NCBI RefSeq assembly: GCF_000012505.1
Contig: NC_007513.1
Coordinates: 992,001-1,056,000, forward strand
DNA from: Synechococcus sp. CC9902
Lineage (GTDB): Bacteria; Cyanobacteriota; Cyanobacteriia; PCC-6307; Cyanobiaceae
Length of the DNA stretch: 64,000 bases
Direction: 5' to 3'
The stretch's first letter is position 1; each line of letters opens with the position of its first letter. Position numbers and translations under genes: made by a program. Shown here piece by piece: positions 8,243 through 27,226 of this stretch. The notes below the pieces were generated by a model that worked only from the letters and a program-made list of their open reading frames with translations, ran no database searches and was not told the DNA's origin.

Positions 8243-8444
8243 GATGCTAGTGATCTCGTTGTTGAAAATCAATTTTAGGCCTTTTAGGATAGGTGGTTTC
8301 TTTCGCTCTTGTTTTCCGACTCCAATGATACATATTTGTTTGGATCGTTTTATCCTTGTCTGTATTGAAGTTTTATCGCAGGGAATTTGAAAGTATTTAT
8401 ACTTAAGTATTCCAGGTTTTGGTTAAGTTACAGGTTTTTTATCG

Positions 8445-8720
8445 ATGATTTTGAAGGATGGGATGGACTCCTTTGATTTATTTGGCAATGTGCATGTACA
8501 AGTGCGCTGCCAGTCCATGTCGTTCACACTTCCTGGTCTTCTTCCGTGGCATTTTCGAATTGTGCTAATCGGTCAGCATGTGGTGTTAGAAGCATTATCT
8601 GAGAGTCAGCATTTCAGTACGATTCTCGAGCCCACTAGCAGCCGTATTCGCCGGGGATATGAATTAATTCAATCACCACAATGTGCATTAATTCATGATT
8701 CTCGGGCTGGATGCCATTAA
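8445..8720 (+). CDS. Hypothetical protein, 91 aa
   Basis: A small ATG-started frame with mixed composition and no membrane segment or motif. Codon use is compatible with coding, but I see no ribosome-binding site. It could be a spurious frame. Confidence 0.35.
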   Translation: MILKDGMDSFDLFGNVHVQVRCQSMSFTLPGLLPWHFRIVLIGQHVVLEALSESQHFSTILEPTSSRIRRGYELIQSPQCALIHDSRAGCH

Positions 8721-8985
8721 AAATCACAGTTGGATTCAATTATTTTTGCTTGGTTGTTCCTTCACACTTTAAAAATTTGACAAACCCAGCCTATGGCTTG
8801 GGCTGCATTGCATCGTTCTGCTACCTCTAGGTGAGGTTATGACCATTCCGCGGCGATGCCCTTGGCACTGCTTTGACCCACTCTGGTTTCTGCCCGACTC
8901 AGCAGTTTCCGACAATTGATGAAGACAGCTTGGTGGCCATTGCATTTGTCTTATCTGTGAGGCGCTCAGGCATTGTGAGGGGACA

Positions 8986-9354
8986 TTGCAGTCTCATCAG
9001 TCGGTGACCAACAAACGTGTGATTAGCAGCGACAGTGGAGCGGGTGGGTTTGGCGCTGCAACCACCAAGCGGTCCAAAGCCTCAAAAGCGAGGCGTAAGC
9101 CGCGTAAATCGAACCATCGGAGGGAGCAGTGCCCGCTGGGTCGCGATCCCGACATTGATGCCATCAAGGCTCGTCAGAGTCTTGGTTTGCCGTTGACAGG
9201 TCGCTTAAGTGTGGCGGTGGTTAAACAAGCTCATAAATCGCTTGCTGTTCAACATCATCCCGATAAAGGCGGTGATCCCGAGATGATGACGCGCTTCAAT
9301 CATGCCCGTGATGTACTGCTTGAGCCCGTTATGGACAGTATCGCTGCTGAATAG
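8986..9354 (+). CDS. J-domain protein with basic N-terminal tail
   Basis: A 122-aa protein. The TTG start is supported by a GAGGGG ribosome-binding site five bases upstream. Residues 1-45 are Lys/Arg/Ser-rich and probably disordered. Residues 55-115 form a compact J domain with the diagnostic HPD tripeptide (QHHPDKGG) and a following helix III/IV. J domains stimulate the ATPase of Hsp70. No substrate-binding or zinc region follows, so it may recruit DnaK to a site chosen by its basic tail. Confidence 0.8.
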   Translation: MQSHQSVTNKRVISSDSGAGGFGAATTKRSKASKARRKPRKSNHRREQCPLGRDPDIDAIKARQSLGLPLTGRLSVAVVKQAHKSLAVQHHPDKGGDPEMMTRFNHARDVLLEPVMDSIAAE

Positions 9355-9364
9355 TCCTCGCTCA

Positions 9365-9484
9365 CTACTTGGGTGACCGACCAAGTACTAACCAACAAAT
9401 CAAAAGGACTCCTCCCAGGCTCATGACCGTATAGATCCAGTCGGCATAGGGGGTCCAAAATATTCCAGGGTATAAATGATTCAC
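9365..9484 (-). CDS. Membrane micro-protein, 39 aa, overlapping its upstream partner
   Basis: A GTG start overlaps the stop of the 29-aa frame before it (GTGA). The product has an aromatic N-terminal part (PGIFWTPYADW) and one membrane helix with a short basic end. It would be translated by coupling. No known photosystem, cytochrome b6f or NDH small subunit matches by eye. The tight overlap and helix character argue for a real two-gene unit. Confidence 0.5.
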   Translation of the reverse strand: MNHLYPGIFWTPYADWIYTVMSLGGVLLICWLVLGRSPK

Positions 9485-9570
9485 CGATCCCAAACCAATA
9501 TGAGGACTGCCAACAGAGCACCAAATACCAAAAATGGTGTTGCGATGGTCAAAATCGATTGAGTGTCCAT
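9481..9570 (-). CDS. Membrane micro-protein, 29 aa
   Basis: An ATG-started leftward frame of 29 codons with a single hydrophobic helix (about residues 6-26) and a WDR end. It is the upstream member of an overlapping pair with the 39-aa frame. The size resembles single-pass subunits of photosynthetic complexes, but the sequence does not match PsbM, PsbN, PsaM, PetG or PetL as I know them. Confidence 0.5.
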   Translation of the reverse strand: MDTQSILTIATPFLVFGALLAVLILVWDR

Positions 9571-9763
9571 CGACGATATACGGTTATGAAAATTTTCTTC
9601 GAAATCACCCTCCGTTGTCAATTATTTGATATCGATTGATATATAATAGGCTTTAATCCAGGCCTTATATAGTCTGTTAGAGTTGTAAGTTGTCTTATTT
9701 CTATTGTCCTAGAGAGTTTGTCGCTCAGAATGGAATTTGTACTGTGCCTGTTTGATTGCTCTG

Positions 9764-10021
9764 TTACCGCAGAATATTTGCTTTGAAAAAACCAAAACCT
9801 AGGCCAAACGAATTTTTTTTGTCACGATGAAGTGTGATCGAGATGTCAAAATCTAGTAATCCGAATTCATGGATCTCATTGCTTGTAATGCCATGGGAGT
9901 TCTCGTTTTCAAACTGTTCAATAATCTTTTCTTTGTTTGTCTCAAGATTCCCTACAATCTGCTTTAATACATAATCTCGCCAGGCATTGATCGATTCTTG
10001 ACTAATTGATTCAGTGTTCAT
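9764..10021 (-). CDS. Hypothetical protein, 85 aa
   Basis: A soluble acidic protein with helical N-terminal half (Glu/Asn/Ile-rich) and a Gly/Phe-rich C-terminus. ATG start and clean frame, AT-rich codon use. No family recognised; it looks like one more orphan of the accessory stretch. Confidence 0.5.
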   Translation of the reverse strand: MNTESISQESINAWRDYVLKQIVGNLETNKEKIIEQFENENSHGITSNEIHEFGLLDFDISITLHRDKKNSFGLGFGFFKANILR

Positions 10022-10330
10022 GCTTGAGGCTAGAGTTTAAGATTTAGAGGGAAATATTATAGCTTAAGTTTACGTATGGGAGATAATATTGATAATAGCC
10101 TCGATGAACGATGACTGCCGGTGATCTCCTCTATATATAGAGATTGCGGCTTGGTTGACGGTTTCGTTGATAATAAATAGATCTTTGATACTAGTTTGAT
10201 ATTGGTTTTTGTAAGTGTGCGAAAGATGATGCCCGTGTTGTGGGCGGGCATGATTTGTGAGTGTTGTTCCATCGAATTGTGTCCAGATGTGACCGTCGAT
10301 GGATAGCTCACGATCCGGCGCAGTCTGTTC
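10022..10330. other. AT-rich spacer with small inverted repeats
   Basis: This gap of about 310 bases contains a 14-bp palindrome CTCTATATATAGAG at 10,129-10,142 and a hairpin ATGCCCG/CGGGCAT at 10,229-10,251. An 84-codon leftward frame at 10,057-10,311 looks unlike protein and is not called. Promoters or a terminator may lie here. Confidence 0.45.
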
Positions 10331-10870
10331 CTAGATCAGCCAGTAGCCGGTCCAGTCTGGTGTCTCGGATACTGAGACCTCTGTTGTGCTGGGTGTTAAT
10401 TGGATATGCCAGCGCCCATTGCCATTTATCGGTAAGAGATCATCAATAAGCGGATTTCCATTGATTTTGTGGAGATCGTCCTTGTGGATTTGAGTCATGC
10501 CCTTAAGCCAGCGTTTCTTGGCTGTGGCCTTTGCTGATTGAGCTGTTGATGCAACAACAATGCCAAATTCATGTTGCTCGGCCATGGATTGGCTTGAATA
10601 TCCTCCAAGATTCACAAACCATAGGCGATATTCATCAGTAGGTTCATTCACGGTTGGTGAATGAACCACAGCTACGGACATTCCATCTACATGCAGAATT
10701 TTCCGGTAGCTATCAATATGGAGCCCTTTTTTGTCACCAAACCATTCACTCTTCAGTGTCTTAATTGTATCCTGAATTGATTCCCCCACCACCCACCTGA
10801 CGTCATGGAGTTCGATATTGCAGCCCTTCATTCTCCCCCCCAACACCACAAGATATAAATGGACGGCCAT
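10331..10870 (-). CDS. DUF1543 domain protein
   Basis: A 179-aa soluble protein. The N-terminus YLVVLGGRMKGCNIELHD, followed by EWFGDKKGLHIDS, is the characteristic DUF1543 signature; family members typically contain one or two such units. The function of the family is unknown. It starts at ATG 10,870 and reads leftward, with about 75 bases separating it from the end of the helicase gene upstream, so it may be the tail of the repair operon or independent. Confidence 0.8.
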   Translation of the reverse strand: MAVHLYLVVLGGRMKGCNIELHDVRWVVGESIQDTIKTLKSEWFGDKKGLHIDSYRKILHVDGMSVAVVHSPTVNEPTDEYRLWFVNLGGYSSQSMAEQHEFGIVVASTAQSAKATAKKRWLKGMTQIHKDDLHKINGNPLIDDLLPINGNGRWHIQLTPSTTEVSVSETPDWTGYWLI

Positions 10871-10946
10871 GGAGGAAGATTAAAAGACTTTGATCCTTGG
10901 TTACACTATCTGATAATCTGAGTCACTAACGTTATGAGTTTTTCTC

Positions 10947-13421
10947 TTAAGATTCTTTGTGCAGAGCATCCTTTTGCATGCGCATGATTCGTTCGAGCAC
11001 AGTCTCGTTTGACATGCGTGAATTGAGGCGCTCGACCAACAATGGAAAGGCTAGTGGTCCAGGGCGTGGTGTTTGGACATGCAGCCATTCTTGTTCAGCG
11101 GCCCGAGTAAGTGCATGTTCCAATCTGCTGAGCTCTAGTTGATCGTGCATCACTTCTTGATAAGCCTGTTGAAGTAATCGATTGCTTGGTTCATGTCTAT
11201 TAAATACATCAAATAAAAGAGACGCACTAATTTGAAGTTGGCCGGTGCTTTTGGTTGATCCTGGAAAGCCACGATTCATTAGACCTGCGATTTGTGCAAT
11301 GGCCCGAAAACGTCGTCGTTGCAGTTCTGAAAGGTTGAGTGCATTCTGTAAATCATTCTCGAGATTTTCTTTATTAAGTAGGAGCTCGGAATATTCTTCA
11401 ACAATCTCTGCCATTGGGTAGCTCCTTGGTGCTAATAATTCAAATCCATAATCATTAACAGATACTGTAATTGTGCCGCGATTCAGCTTTGTGAGTCTTG
11501 ATGCCCACAGAAATCCGATTCCCTCGTGAACAAATCGACCTTCAAATGGATATGCGAATAGATGGCTCCCCTCGCGTGTTTGACAGGTTTCGATTAACAG
11601 CTGATTCGTTTTTGGTAGAACAGATAAATCCTGCTGTCGATCAAATAATGGTTTTAATGCTTTTAATTCCGGTGTGTCTAGATCTTCTCGTCTGGCTCGA
11701 TCTATTTCTTGTCGTAGGTGATGTGTCAGCAGGTCGGATAGTGCCATTTGACCTCCTGCCCATGCTGGTACTGTACGACTTTTTTTCGTGCTGACTTTGA
11801 CGTAGGCTGTCATCTCTCTGAGTCGAATAAACTCGAGTTGTCGTCCCGAAAAAAAGAACACATCTTTGGGTTTTAGCTGGCTAATAAATGTTTCTTCAAC
11901 ATGGCCTAATACAGCTCCTCGAATGAATCGGACTGTGATCGATGGTGCTGCTGTAATCGTACCAATATTGAATCGATGCAGTCTGGCGATCATTTTTTCG
12001 CGGATATGATATTTCTTGCTTTCCTTATTCCATTCAAGCTTTTTGTATCTCGGGTATGCACCTAGGCATTCACCACCCTCTTTGAGAAATATGAGACACC
12101 AATCCCAGTCTTCCTGGCTCAGATGTTCATAGCATGCACTCGTTTTTACTGCTTTTAGGGTTTGTTCTGCGTTGAACCCTGGCCCACAAGCAAGGCTTGT
12201 AAGGTGTTGGAGTAATACATCAAGTGGAGCATTTGGTGGTTTTCGCTGCTCGACTAATCCTTCTTCTAAGCCTCGTCGAACTGCGCTTAGTTCTAGAAGC
12301 TCCAGTGCATTGGTTGGCATAAATAATACTTTAGAGGTCCCTCCTGGGATATGGGATGATCGACCTGCTCGCTGTAAAAGACGAGCTAAATTCTTTGGAC
12401 TACCAATTTGTACAACCTGTTCTACTGGCTGAAAATCCACACCTAAATCTAGAGAACTGGTGCACACCACCCAACGAATATCTCCTGCTTTTACAGCTGA
12501 TTCAATGGATTCTCGTTCTCCACGATCGATTGCACTGTGATGTAAAGCGAGTGCCCCTTCCATTTCAGGACAGGCGAAACGAAGACATTGATGCCAACGT
12601 TCTGATTGATTTCTTGTGTTAGTGAACAGCAGTGTGCTGATGTTCGGATTGAGAACAGCTACAAGCTCTTCATACATTCGTAGGCCGAGGTGACCCGCCC
12701 AAGGGAAGCCATCAATCTTTTCTGGAAATATGCTGTGGATATAAGTGGTCCTTGCCGGTGCGCCCCCAACCATTATGGGTTTGCCCTTCGTGCCCAGTGC
12801 GTGCAGTGCGGCCTGGTTCAAATTTCCAATCGTGGCACTGATCGCCCAGGTTTGTAGGCCTGGACGTTGTTGGCGAAGCCATGAAAGGCATAGCTCTGTT
12901 TGGCTACCACGCTTACTTCCCATCAATTCATGCCATTCATCCAAGATCACGGTGTCGAGGTTATTGAACAGCTCCTCTGCCTTCGGATTACTGAGCAATA
13001 GAGTTAGTGATTCTGGAGTGGTAACTAATATTTCCGGTGGTGATTTAAGTTGTTTCGTGCGTTCACTACTTTTGCTGTCTCCGTTACGGATGCCGACGCG
13101 CAATGGCCAATTCATCACTTCTATTGGATCTCGTATTGCTAGGGCTAGATCCCGACTCAGCGCTCGAAGTGGGGTGAGATATAGCAATCGTATCCCTTTA
13201 CGATCTGCGGTATCTGTCAGCATTCGGGCGATGGGGCCCATCACTGCTGCATAGGTTTTTCCAGACCCTGTTGGTACTTGGATAAGGCCACTTTTGCCTT
13301 CTAAATATGCTTCCCAAGTTTTTCTCTGAAATGGAAGTGGCGTCCATCCCTGATGATAAAACCATTTATGAATTGGTTGTAGTTGATCGGTTGAATCCAC
13401 TTCATGCGAACGTCCTGGCAT
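10947..13421 (-). CDS. Ligase-associated DEXH-box DNA helicase (Lhr-like)
   Basis: An 824-aa superfamily-2 helicase. Walker A TGSGKT is at residues 51-56, a DEWH box lies near 160, and a SAT motif (AISATIG) follows. The second RecA domain has the QRAGRSSH motif VI, and the C-terminal half carries the Lhr-type winged-helix and beta-barrel region. This family unwinds DNA 3' to 5' and is encoded with an ATP-dependent ligase and an MBL-fold exonuclease in a predicted repair pathway. It starts two bases after the ligase stop, so the two are co-transcribed. Confidence 0.92.
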   Translation of the reverse strand: MPGRSHEVDSTDQLQPIHKWFYHQGWTPLPFQRKTWEAYLEGKSGLIQVPTGSGKTYAAVMGPIARMLTDTADRKGIRLLYLTPLRALSRDLALAIRDPIEVMNWPLRVGIRNGDSKSSERTKQLKSPPEILVTTPESLTLLLSNPKAEELFNNLDTVILDEWHELMGSKRGSQTELCLSWLRQQRPGLQTWAISATIGNLNQAALHALGTKGKPIMVGGAPARTTYIHSIFPEKIDGFPWAGHLGLRMYEELVAVLNPNISTLLFTNTRNQSERWHQCLRFACPEMEGALALHHSAIDRGERESIESAVKAGDIRWVVCTSSLDLGVDFQPVEQVVQIGSPKNLARLLQRAGRSSHIPGGTSKVLFMPTNALELLELSAVRRGLEEGLVEQRKPPNAPLDVLLQHLTSLACGPGFNAEQTLKAVKTSACYEHLSQEDWDWCLIFLKEGGECLGAYPRYKKLEWNKESKKYHIREKMIARLHRFNIGTITAAPSITVRFIRGAVLGHVEETFISQLKPKDVFFFSGRQLEFIRLREMTAYVKVSTKKSRTVPAWAGGQMALSDLLTHHLRQEIDRARREDLDTPELKALKPLFDRQQDLSVLPKTNQLLIETCQTREGSHLFAYPFEGRFVHEGIGFLWASRLTKLNRGTITVSVNDYGFELLAPRSYPMAEIVEEYSELLLNKENLENDLQNALNLSELQRRRFRAIAQIAGLMNRGFPGSTKSTGQLQISASLLFDVFNRHEPSNRLLQQAYQEVMHDQLELSRLEHALTRAAEQEWLHVQTPRPGPLAFPLLVERLNSRMSNETVLERIMRMQKDALHKES

Positions 13422-27124: not shown

Positions 27125-27226
27125 GTGTTATTCACCGTTGCCTGGGCATCTCTTGCCGCCATGTTCAGCTTCTCGATTGCGATGGTGGTTTGGGGTCGTA
27201 ACGGTGACGGCACACTGAAATTCTGA
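27125..27226 (+). CDS. petN: Cytochrome b6f complex subunit VIII (PetN)
   Basis: A 33-aa single-helix subunit of the cytochrome b6f complex, needed for its assembly. The sequence (V/M)[12 protein letters not shown]...[11 protein letters not shown] is the conserved PetN pattern. GTG start at 27,125. It is divergent from clpS, with a 70-base shared promoter region. A 49-aa membrane protein follows after seven bases. Confidence 0.97.

Follow-up and report, generated by a model that had tools for sequence, protein, structure and literature searches.

Two very short hydrophobic frames meet at positions 9365 to 9570 of the DNA studied here, the second starting on the stop codon of the first. The question raised by this locus is whether they are two membrane proteins in their own right, the halves of one broken gene, or a small unit of another kind such as a toxin-antitoxin pair. 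The window, i.e., the whole stretch of DNA that was analysed (64,000 nucleotides), corresponds to positions 992001-1056000 of a genome of 2,234,828 bases. The sequence-only reading, which gave no strand, had described two overlapping single-pass micro-proteins of 29 and 39 amino acids with a GTGA junction. This description was confirmed; both frames were located on the minus strand, with one hydrophobic stretch in each, and are referred to here as P1 and P2. The features of the locus are as follows:

9481-9570, minus strand: P1, 29-aa single-helix micro-protein (ATG start at 9570-9568, TGA stop at 9483-9481)
9365-9484, minus strand: P2, 39-aa single-helix micro-protein (GTG start at 9484-9482, TAG stop at 9367-9365)
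9481-9484, minus strand: GTGA, shared by the P1 stop and the P2 start, read from the sequence; NTGA is kept in relatives
9616-9621, minus strand: -35-like hexamer TTGACA, found upstream of P1 in 21 of 22 loci
9592-9597, minus strand: -10-like hexamer GAAAAT, 18 nt after TTGACA and 21 nt before the P1 start; consensus-based prediction
9764-10021, minus strand: 85-aa conserved protein without an assigned function, neighbour upstream of P1
8986-9354, plus strand: J-domain-like gene convergent with P2 (DnaJ Pfam E-value 1.9e-4, short of the family cut-off)

The translation of P1 was MDTQSILTIATPFLVFGALLAVLILVWDR (29 aa) and that of P2 was (M)NHLYPGIFWTPYADWIYTVMSLGGVLLICWLVLGRSPK (39 aa), the latter containing the motif WTPYADWIY. 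Ten bases separated the end of the J-domain-like gene (9354) from the P2 stop codon. This gene adjoined P2 in the window and likewise, among the stretches listed, in the seven others of the genus that carry P2. The 85-aa neighbour (9764-10021), whose C-terminal end was SFGLGFGFFKANILR, had no match in Pfam and none above the cut-off in NCBIfam. Relatives of its gene were present upstream of P1 at both P1 sites, the usual one and the one found in genomes G020 and G023. The gene for PetN of the cytochrome b6f complex was also located in the window (27131-27208, plus strand).

To judge the coding status of both frames, 22 loci with adjoining P1 and P2 were compared (21 genomes of the genus and contig L115). 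The comparison covered the first 29 codons of P1 (21 distinct DNA sequences, nine proteins) and the 28 codons of P2 from WTPYADW onward (22 distinct DNA sequences, 13 proteins). Summed over all pairs, the in-frame pN/pS was 0.205 for P1 and 0.146 for P2. The corresponding values were 1.55 and 4.59 in the other two frames of P1 and 1.28 and 2.03 in those of P2; the pairs are not mutually independent, but the contrast between frames was nonetheless plain. Conserved frames with synonymous changes across relatives, the pattern that the sequence-only reading had associated with two proteins, were thus found for P1 and P2 alike. Since purifying selection was seen in the P1 and P2 frames only, the comparison indicates that both are translated now, or were until very recently, and that they are real proteins, each kept separately by selection. 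Contig L115 is labelled Crocinitomicaceae and was apparently mis-binned, as it carries P1-P2 of the Synechococcus form.

An NTGA overlap joined the frames in 20 of the 22 adjoining loci (N = A in 16, G in three, and T in one), giving P2 an ATG (16), GTG (3), or TTG (1) start codon. In the remaining genomes, G006 and G032, the P2 ATG was located three bases past the P1 stop without overlap, and P1 and P2 shared one frame, separated by TGA and one codon. No fused P1-P2 frame was found in the 22 loci. A start of the second frame on the stop of the first had earlier been taken to imply coupled translation. The overlap and its retention in relatives fit this proposal, and translation of P2 is probably coupled to that of P1.

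The start codons of the two frames differed in combination among branches. In the branch of the window (G000, G014, and L115) and in G026, P1 began with ATG and P2 with GTG or TTG. In a clade hereinafter referred to as the ATC clade, P1 began with ATC and P2 with ATG, and in G010, G012, G015, G006, and G032 both began with ATG. The pattern suggests a swap of start-codon dose between P1 and P2 across branches, with the last five genomes taking no part in it. The last P1 codon in the ATC clade was CGA (11) or AGA (2), either of which yields the P2 ATG. The longest open frames sampled from two ATC-clade loci contained 97 arginine codons, of which 18 were CGA and 17 were AGA; the genomes are related, and the bias at the P1 end is suggestive only.

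Upstream of P1, TTGACA was found 51-54 nt ahead of the start codon in 21 of the 22 adjoining loci and was absent in G026. A spacer of 18 bases led from it to GANNAT in all but one of these 21 loci (G014 has AGACTA there), and 21 to 24 bases separated GANNAT from the P1 start codon. TTGACA was also present upstream of P1 in genome G007. It was not seen at the corresponding place of the other P1 site (G020, G023, and G022). By its match to the consensus, TTGACA-N18-GANNAT is a predicted promoter, which would give a leader of about 14 nt.

The first codon of P1 was ATC in all 13 genomes of the ATC clade, a clade of marine Synechococcus. In a midpoint-rooted tree of the J-domain with 17 rows, all 11 ATC rows included were located on one side of a branch with a support of 100/99. 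P1 occurred in three protein forms within this clade, at a pS of 0.334 and a pN/pS of 0.041. No in-frame ATG, GTG, or TTG usable ahead of the conserved P1 coding part was identified in the 13 genomes. Four of them (G005, G008, G021, and G013) had an in-frame TGA two codons upstream of ATC, and in G017 no start codon intervened between ATC and an in-frame stop nine codons upstream. In the eight remaining genomes, the first in-frame ATG, GTG, or TTG to be met upstream of ATC was the TTG of TTGACA, at a distance of 17 codons; this TTG precedes the predicted transcript start. ATC was the only near-cognate codon common to all 13 genomes at the P1 start, the codon before it being ACG in 11 genomes, AAG in G013, and CCG in G017. 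Codons 2-4 of P1 encoded E/D-T-Q in all 22 adjoining loci with synonymous changes present, and therefore translation would begin at or before codon 1. Taken together, the shared ATC, the upstream stops, and the conserved codons 2-4 make initiation at AUC the simplest reading for the ATC clade, and a likely one.

Out-of-frame starts close to ATC in this clade count against initiation at AUC. A short upstream frame was considered as the true P1 start and was rejected because its ATG sits within the -10-like hexamer GATGAT. This argument is weaker in G021, where a second ATG of that frame lies past the hexamer, 17 nt before ATC and out of frame with it. Another explanation is that P1 of the ATC clade is started elsewhere, at the ACG one codon upstream or at CTG or TTG in codons 6-7, or that it is dead and only P2 is made. 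An ACG directly before ATC in 11 of the 13 genomes would suit the former, as would codon 6 (CTG or TTG) and codon 7 (CTG or CTC), to which no genome of the clade was an exception. Against this, the place of ACG is taken by AAG and CCG in G013 and G017, respectively, and the conservation of codons 2-4 in ATG and ATC loci alike indicates that these codons are translated. The low pN/pS within the clade argues against a dead P1, and we regard all of these variants together as unlikely.

Besides infC, pcnB is a gene with a non-AUG start under the control of IF3. P1 of the ATC clade would likewise start at an AUN codon, but with AUC instead of AUU; in addition, it encodes a membrane micro-protein rather than a translation or RNA-processing factor and is the first of two frames that are probably coupled. 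The incidence of AUU, CUG, and AUC as start codons is described as variable in prokaryotes in the consulted part of a chloroplast paper (PMC9845219), and the start of infC with AUU appears in the reference list of that paper. A further reading concerns the AUC start as a device: it may have been kept since the clade ancestor before a coupled AUG partner, while the branch of the window combines an AUG-started P1 with a weakly started (GTG or UUG) P2. The two branches would then have opposite dose settings, with IF3 gating P1 according to growth state. We consider the case for this reading to be evenly balanced.

The distribution of the two families was examined together and apart. Of the 34 genomes of the genus, 25 contained P1, among them all 19 near-complete ones. 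P2 was present in 18 of these 19, the exception being G007 (98% complete), in which P1 was present and P2 was undetectable. The two were adjacent in 16 of the 19. The near-complete genomes G020 and G023 kept both proteins at unlinked places, P2 after a 179-aa gene and P1 at a different place, preceded by a relative of the 85-aa gene. The strong matches in a profile search with P1 came from 22 genomes, none of them outside the genus of the window. In total, 38 genomes were matched, of which 16 were outside the genus with weak matches only (best E-value 6e-4, with an internal stop). The weak P1-like loci L107, L108, and L110 outside the genus were inspected, and none was counted as P1. L107, in genome G172 of another genus, is a P1-like frame with an internal stop, perhaps a relic or a chance match.

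P2 was distributed more widely. Of 300 Cyanobiaceae genomes sampled from 59 genera, 119 (in 24 genera) were matched by its profile at an E-value of ≤ 0.1 and 106 (in 15 genera) at ≤ 1e-3, the other 13 genomes being possibly chance matches. A strong match was absent in 194 of the 300 family genomes, and the distribution was accordingly patchy. Most of the P2-bearing genomes among these 300 picocyanobacterial genomes were without P1, and P2 in genomes without P1 was a complete protein of about 30-46 aa. Named relatives were found in WH7803, RCC307, Cyanobium and Vulcanococcus bins, and Prochlorococcus single cells; this named set comprised 56 loci and was collected partly via the motif WTPYADW itself, and every one of the 56 was translated at the match and included in a clustering of neighbouring genes. 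The motif was invariant in 28 aligned P2 sequences, a set likewise gathered partly by it. P2 of G293 was located between purB and fumC, and a gene of the purB or fumC type flanked P2 in at least 24 of the 56 named loci. In RCC307-like genomes, P2 followed a maf-like gene, with psbC convergent (gene names were read from sequence in both cases). A class-wide search of 194 genomes revealed no convincing P2 outside the family, with two weak P2-like matches (E-values of 4.0e-4 and 4.6e-4), and no convincing P1, with one weak match that contained an internal stop (E-value of 0.008).

Since P2-only genomes, the unlinked copies of G020 and G023, and the P1-only genome G007 were all found, neither protein seems to require the other, and P1 and P2 appear to be two independent families. 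P2 is probably the older, picocyanobacterial family and P1 a younger one at the level of the genus.

Most genomes with a strong P2 match had a single copy. Genome G107 (L200, L201, and L202; 2.0 Mb, about 41% GC, no ApcA match) contained four P2 copies, and two copies were found on one contig in other cases (L132, L138, G322 contig C34). WIF-type P2-like copies (L145, L210, L211, and L142) were located near phage-like scaffold, capsid, holin-like, and L,D-transpeptidase-like genes, as read from sequence, and a scaffold-like remnant lay beside the P2 variant at L142. A cyanophage gene was considered as the source of the two frames and rejected: no match to P1 or P2 was obtained in a phage collection, and none to P1 in viral contigs. 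Two P2 matches, one strong and one partial, were found in viral contigs in phage-like surroundings.

Neither P1 nor P2 matched any family in Pfam or NCBIfam. When the 28 members of the P2 alignment were compared with Pfam, five families were obtained, each in one of the 28 members (best E-value 0.018). Searches of the PDB with the single sequences gave nothing convincing (best E-values of 7.1 and 1.6), and the P1 and P2 profiles gave no match at an E-value of ≤ 10, whereas the 29-aa PetN of the same genome, used as a control, matched five PDB sequences at ≤ 3.4e-6. The earlier remark that neither frame resembled a known photosynthetic small subunit was therefore borne out. In PHROGs, P1 had one weak match (E-value of 0.075) and P2 had none. 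The string WTPYADW occurred in no paper in a search of the full text of the literature, and no paper plainly on P1 or P2 was found, as far as the consulted text went, among the matches listed on non-canonical start codons and on small Synechococcus proteins.

The maximal Kyte-Doolittle values over 19 residues were 2.55 for P1 and 2.11 for P2, in the single hydrophobic stretch of each. In five sequences, the N-terminal flank had a charge of -1 and the C-terminal flank a charge of 0 to +2. By the positive-inside rule, this favours a topology with the N-terminus outside and the C-terminus inside for P2, and less certainly for P1.

PetN, PetL, PsbM, PsbT, PsaM, and NdhP have a single helix apiece, and P1 and P2 share with them a size of 29-40 aa and one helix. 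They differ from these subunits in that no convincing relation to a PDB entry was found, whereas PetN has one, and P2 is patchy (no strong match in 194 of 300 genomes), unlike a core subunit. A list of these small cyanobacterial subunits with their lengths is included in the part of PMC5126843 that was consulted, which also describes Norf4, a highly conserved protein of 31 aa with one predicted helix. Norf4 is, like P1 and P2, tiny, highly conserved, and equipped with one helix. Its homologues are described there as missing from alpha-cyanobacteria, mainly marine Synechococcus and Prochlorococcus (PMC5126843), whereas P2 is found on the alpha-cyanobacterial side save for the two weak matches in 194 genomes. 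A phycobilisome-linked subunit was also considered. Of the 196 near-complete family genomes, 139 contained ApcA, and 86 contained P2 at an E-value of ≤ 0.1 (80 at ≤ 1e-3). P2 was found without an ApcA match in G086, G107, and G139, and ApcA without P2 in G060, G063, and G078; because presence was discordant in both directions, a tie to the phycobilisome is unsupported, and this candidate was rejected.

The explanation that we prefer, with a little more confidence than doubt, is that P1 and P2 function as two distinct single-pass membrane micro-proteins, are transcribed together as a short unit, and serve as accessory subunits. Transcription would be driven by a sigma-70-type promoter located some 50 nt upstream, and the leader of the transcript, about 14 nt long, would lack a clear Shine-Dalgarno sequence. 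Ribosomes would translate P1 first and, on terminating at its TGA, would initiate P2 at the GTG, ATG, or TTG that overlaps this stop. P2 would also work alone, as in the arrangement purB-P2-fumC, and P1 may have been placed in front of it later. In both proteins, the acidic N-terminus would probably lie outside, in the lumen or periplasm, and the C-terminus, which is basic or neutral, would lie inside. As dispensable subunits, they would stabilise or adjust a larger membrane complex, like the one-helix proteins of photosynthetic and respiratory complexes; membership in a thylakoid complex is possible. In the ATC clade, P1 would be made from AUC, a weak type of codon against which IF3 discriminates, and hence probably at a low dose. 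The accessory role, which is suggested by size, motif, and patchy distribution, is the weakest step of this explanation and the most likely function.

Among the other explanations, the sequence-only reading had raised that of a single two-helix membrane gene split by a frameshift or a stop in this lineage. The frames do abut, and read-through of the stop in G006 and G032 would fuse them. Nevertheless, a fused frame was sought in relatives and found in none of the 22 adjoining loci, purifying selection acts on each frame in its present form, P2 is complete in genomes that have no P1, and the two are unlinked in G020 and G023. This proposal has therefore fallen away almost entirely, and we give it hardly any weight. 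A stable heterodimer of P1 and P2 that forms one membrane device alone, e.g., a transporter or a regulator of a sensor, is a more serious alternative, although a doubtful one. The overlap, the adjacency in 16 of 19 near-complete genomes, and the probably equal orientation of both helices are consistent with it, and a heterodimer had also been suggested by the sequence-only reading. Its obligate form was weakened by the occurrence of P2 in other genera, where the search found no convincing P1, by G007 with P1 and no detectable P2, and by the unlinked copies of G020 and G023.

A toxin-antitoxin-like unit had also been suggested. As an obligate pair, this did not hold, since P2 is widespread without P1, G007 has P1 only, and the two are unlinked in G020 and G023. 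There is a related form of the idea in which P2 is a small hydrophobic toxin under the control of an antisense RNA. Hok, Ldr, Ibs, and TisB are small hydrophobic type I toxins, and P1 and P2 resemble them in their similar size, in having one helix, and in sometimes occurring in several copies. Two of the four P2 copies of G107 have internal stops, and some P2 copies have phage-like scaffold, capsid, and L,D-transpeptidase-like genes as neighbours; such copies are easier to reconcile with a mobile, selfish, or toxin-like element than with a subunit. P2 differs from the type I toxins in its strongly kept N-terminal motif and in its place between purB and fumC in G293. No antisense RNA is known for it, and Rfam gave no match on either strand of positions 8300-11000 at an E-value of ≤ 1. 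A toxin or mobile element was considered improbable because of the one copy in most strong-match genomes, the purB/fumC flanks, and the conserved motif.

With the two accessory membrane proteins as the preferred reading, P1 and P2 would be new families of a known kind, and the conserved AUC start would be the surprising part. The two membrane protein families have no Pfam or NCBIfam entry, are strongly selected, and may be missing parts of membrane complexes that are otherwise well studied; one of them, P2, is common in picocyanobacteria of the ocean and of lakes. P1 with an ATC start would be overlooked by searches for ATG, GTG, and TTG starts. The ATC clade offers a rare and testable case of AUC initiation kept in evolution, and, if this reading is true, P1 would be a natural AUC-started gene retained over long evolution.
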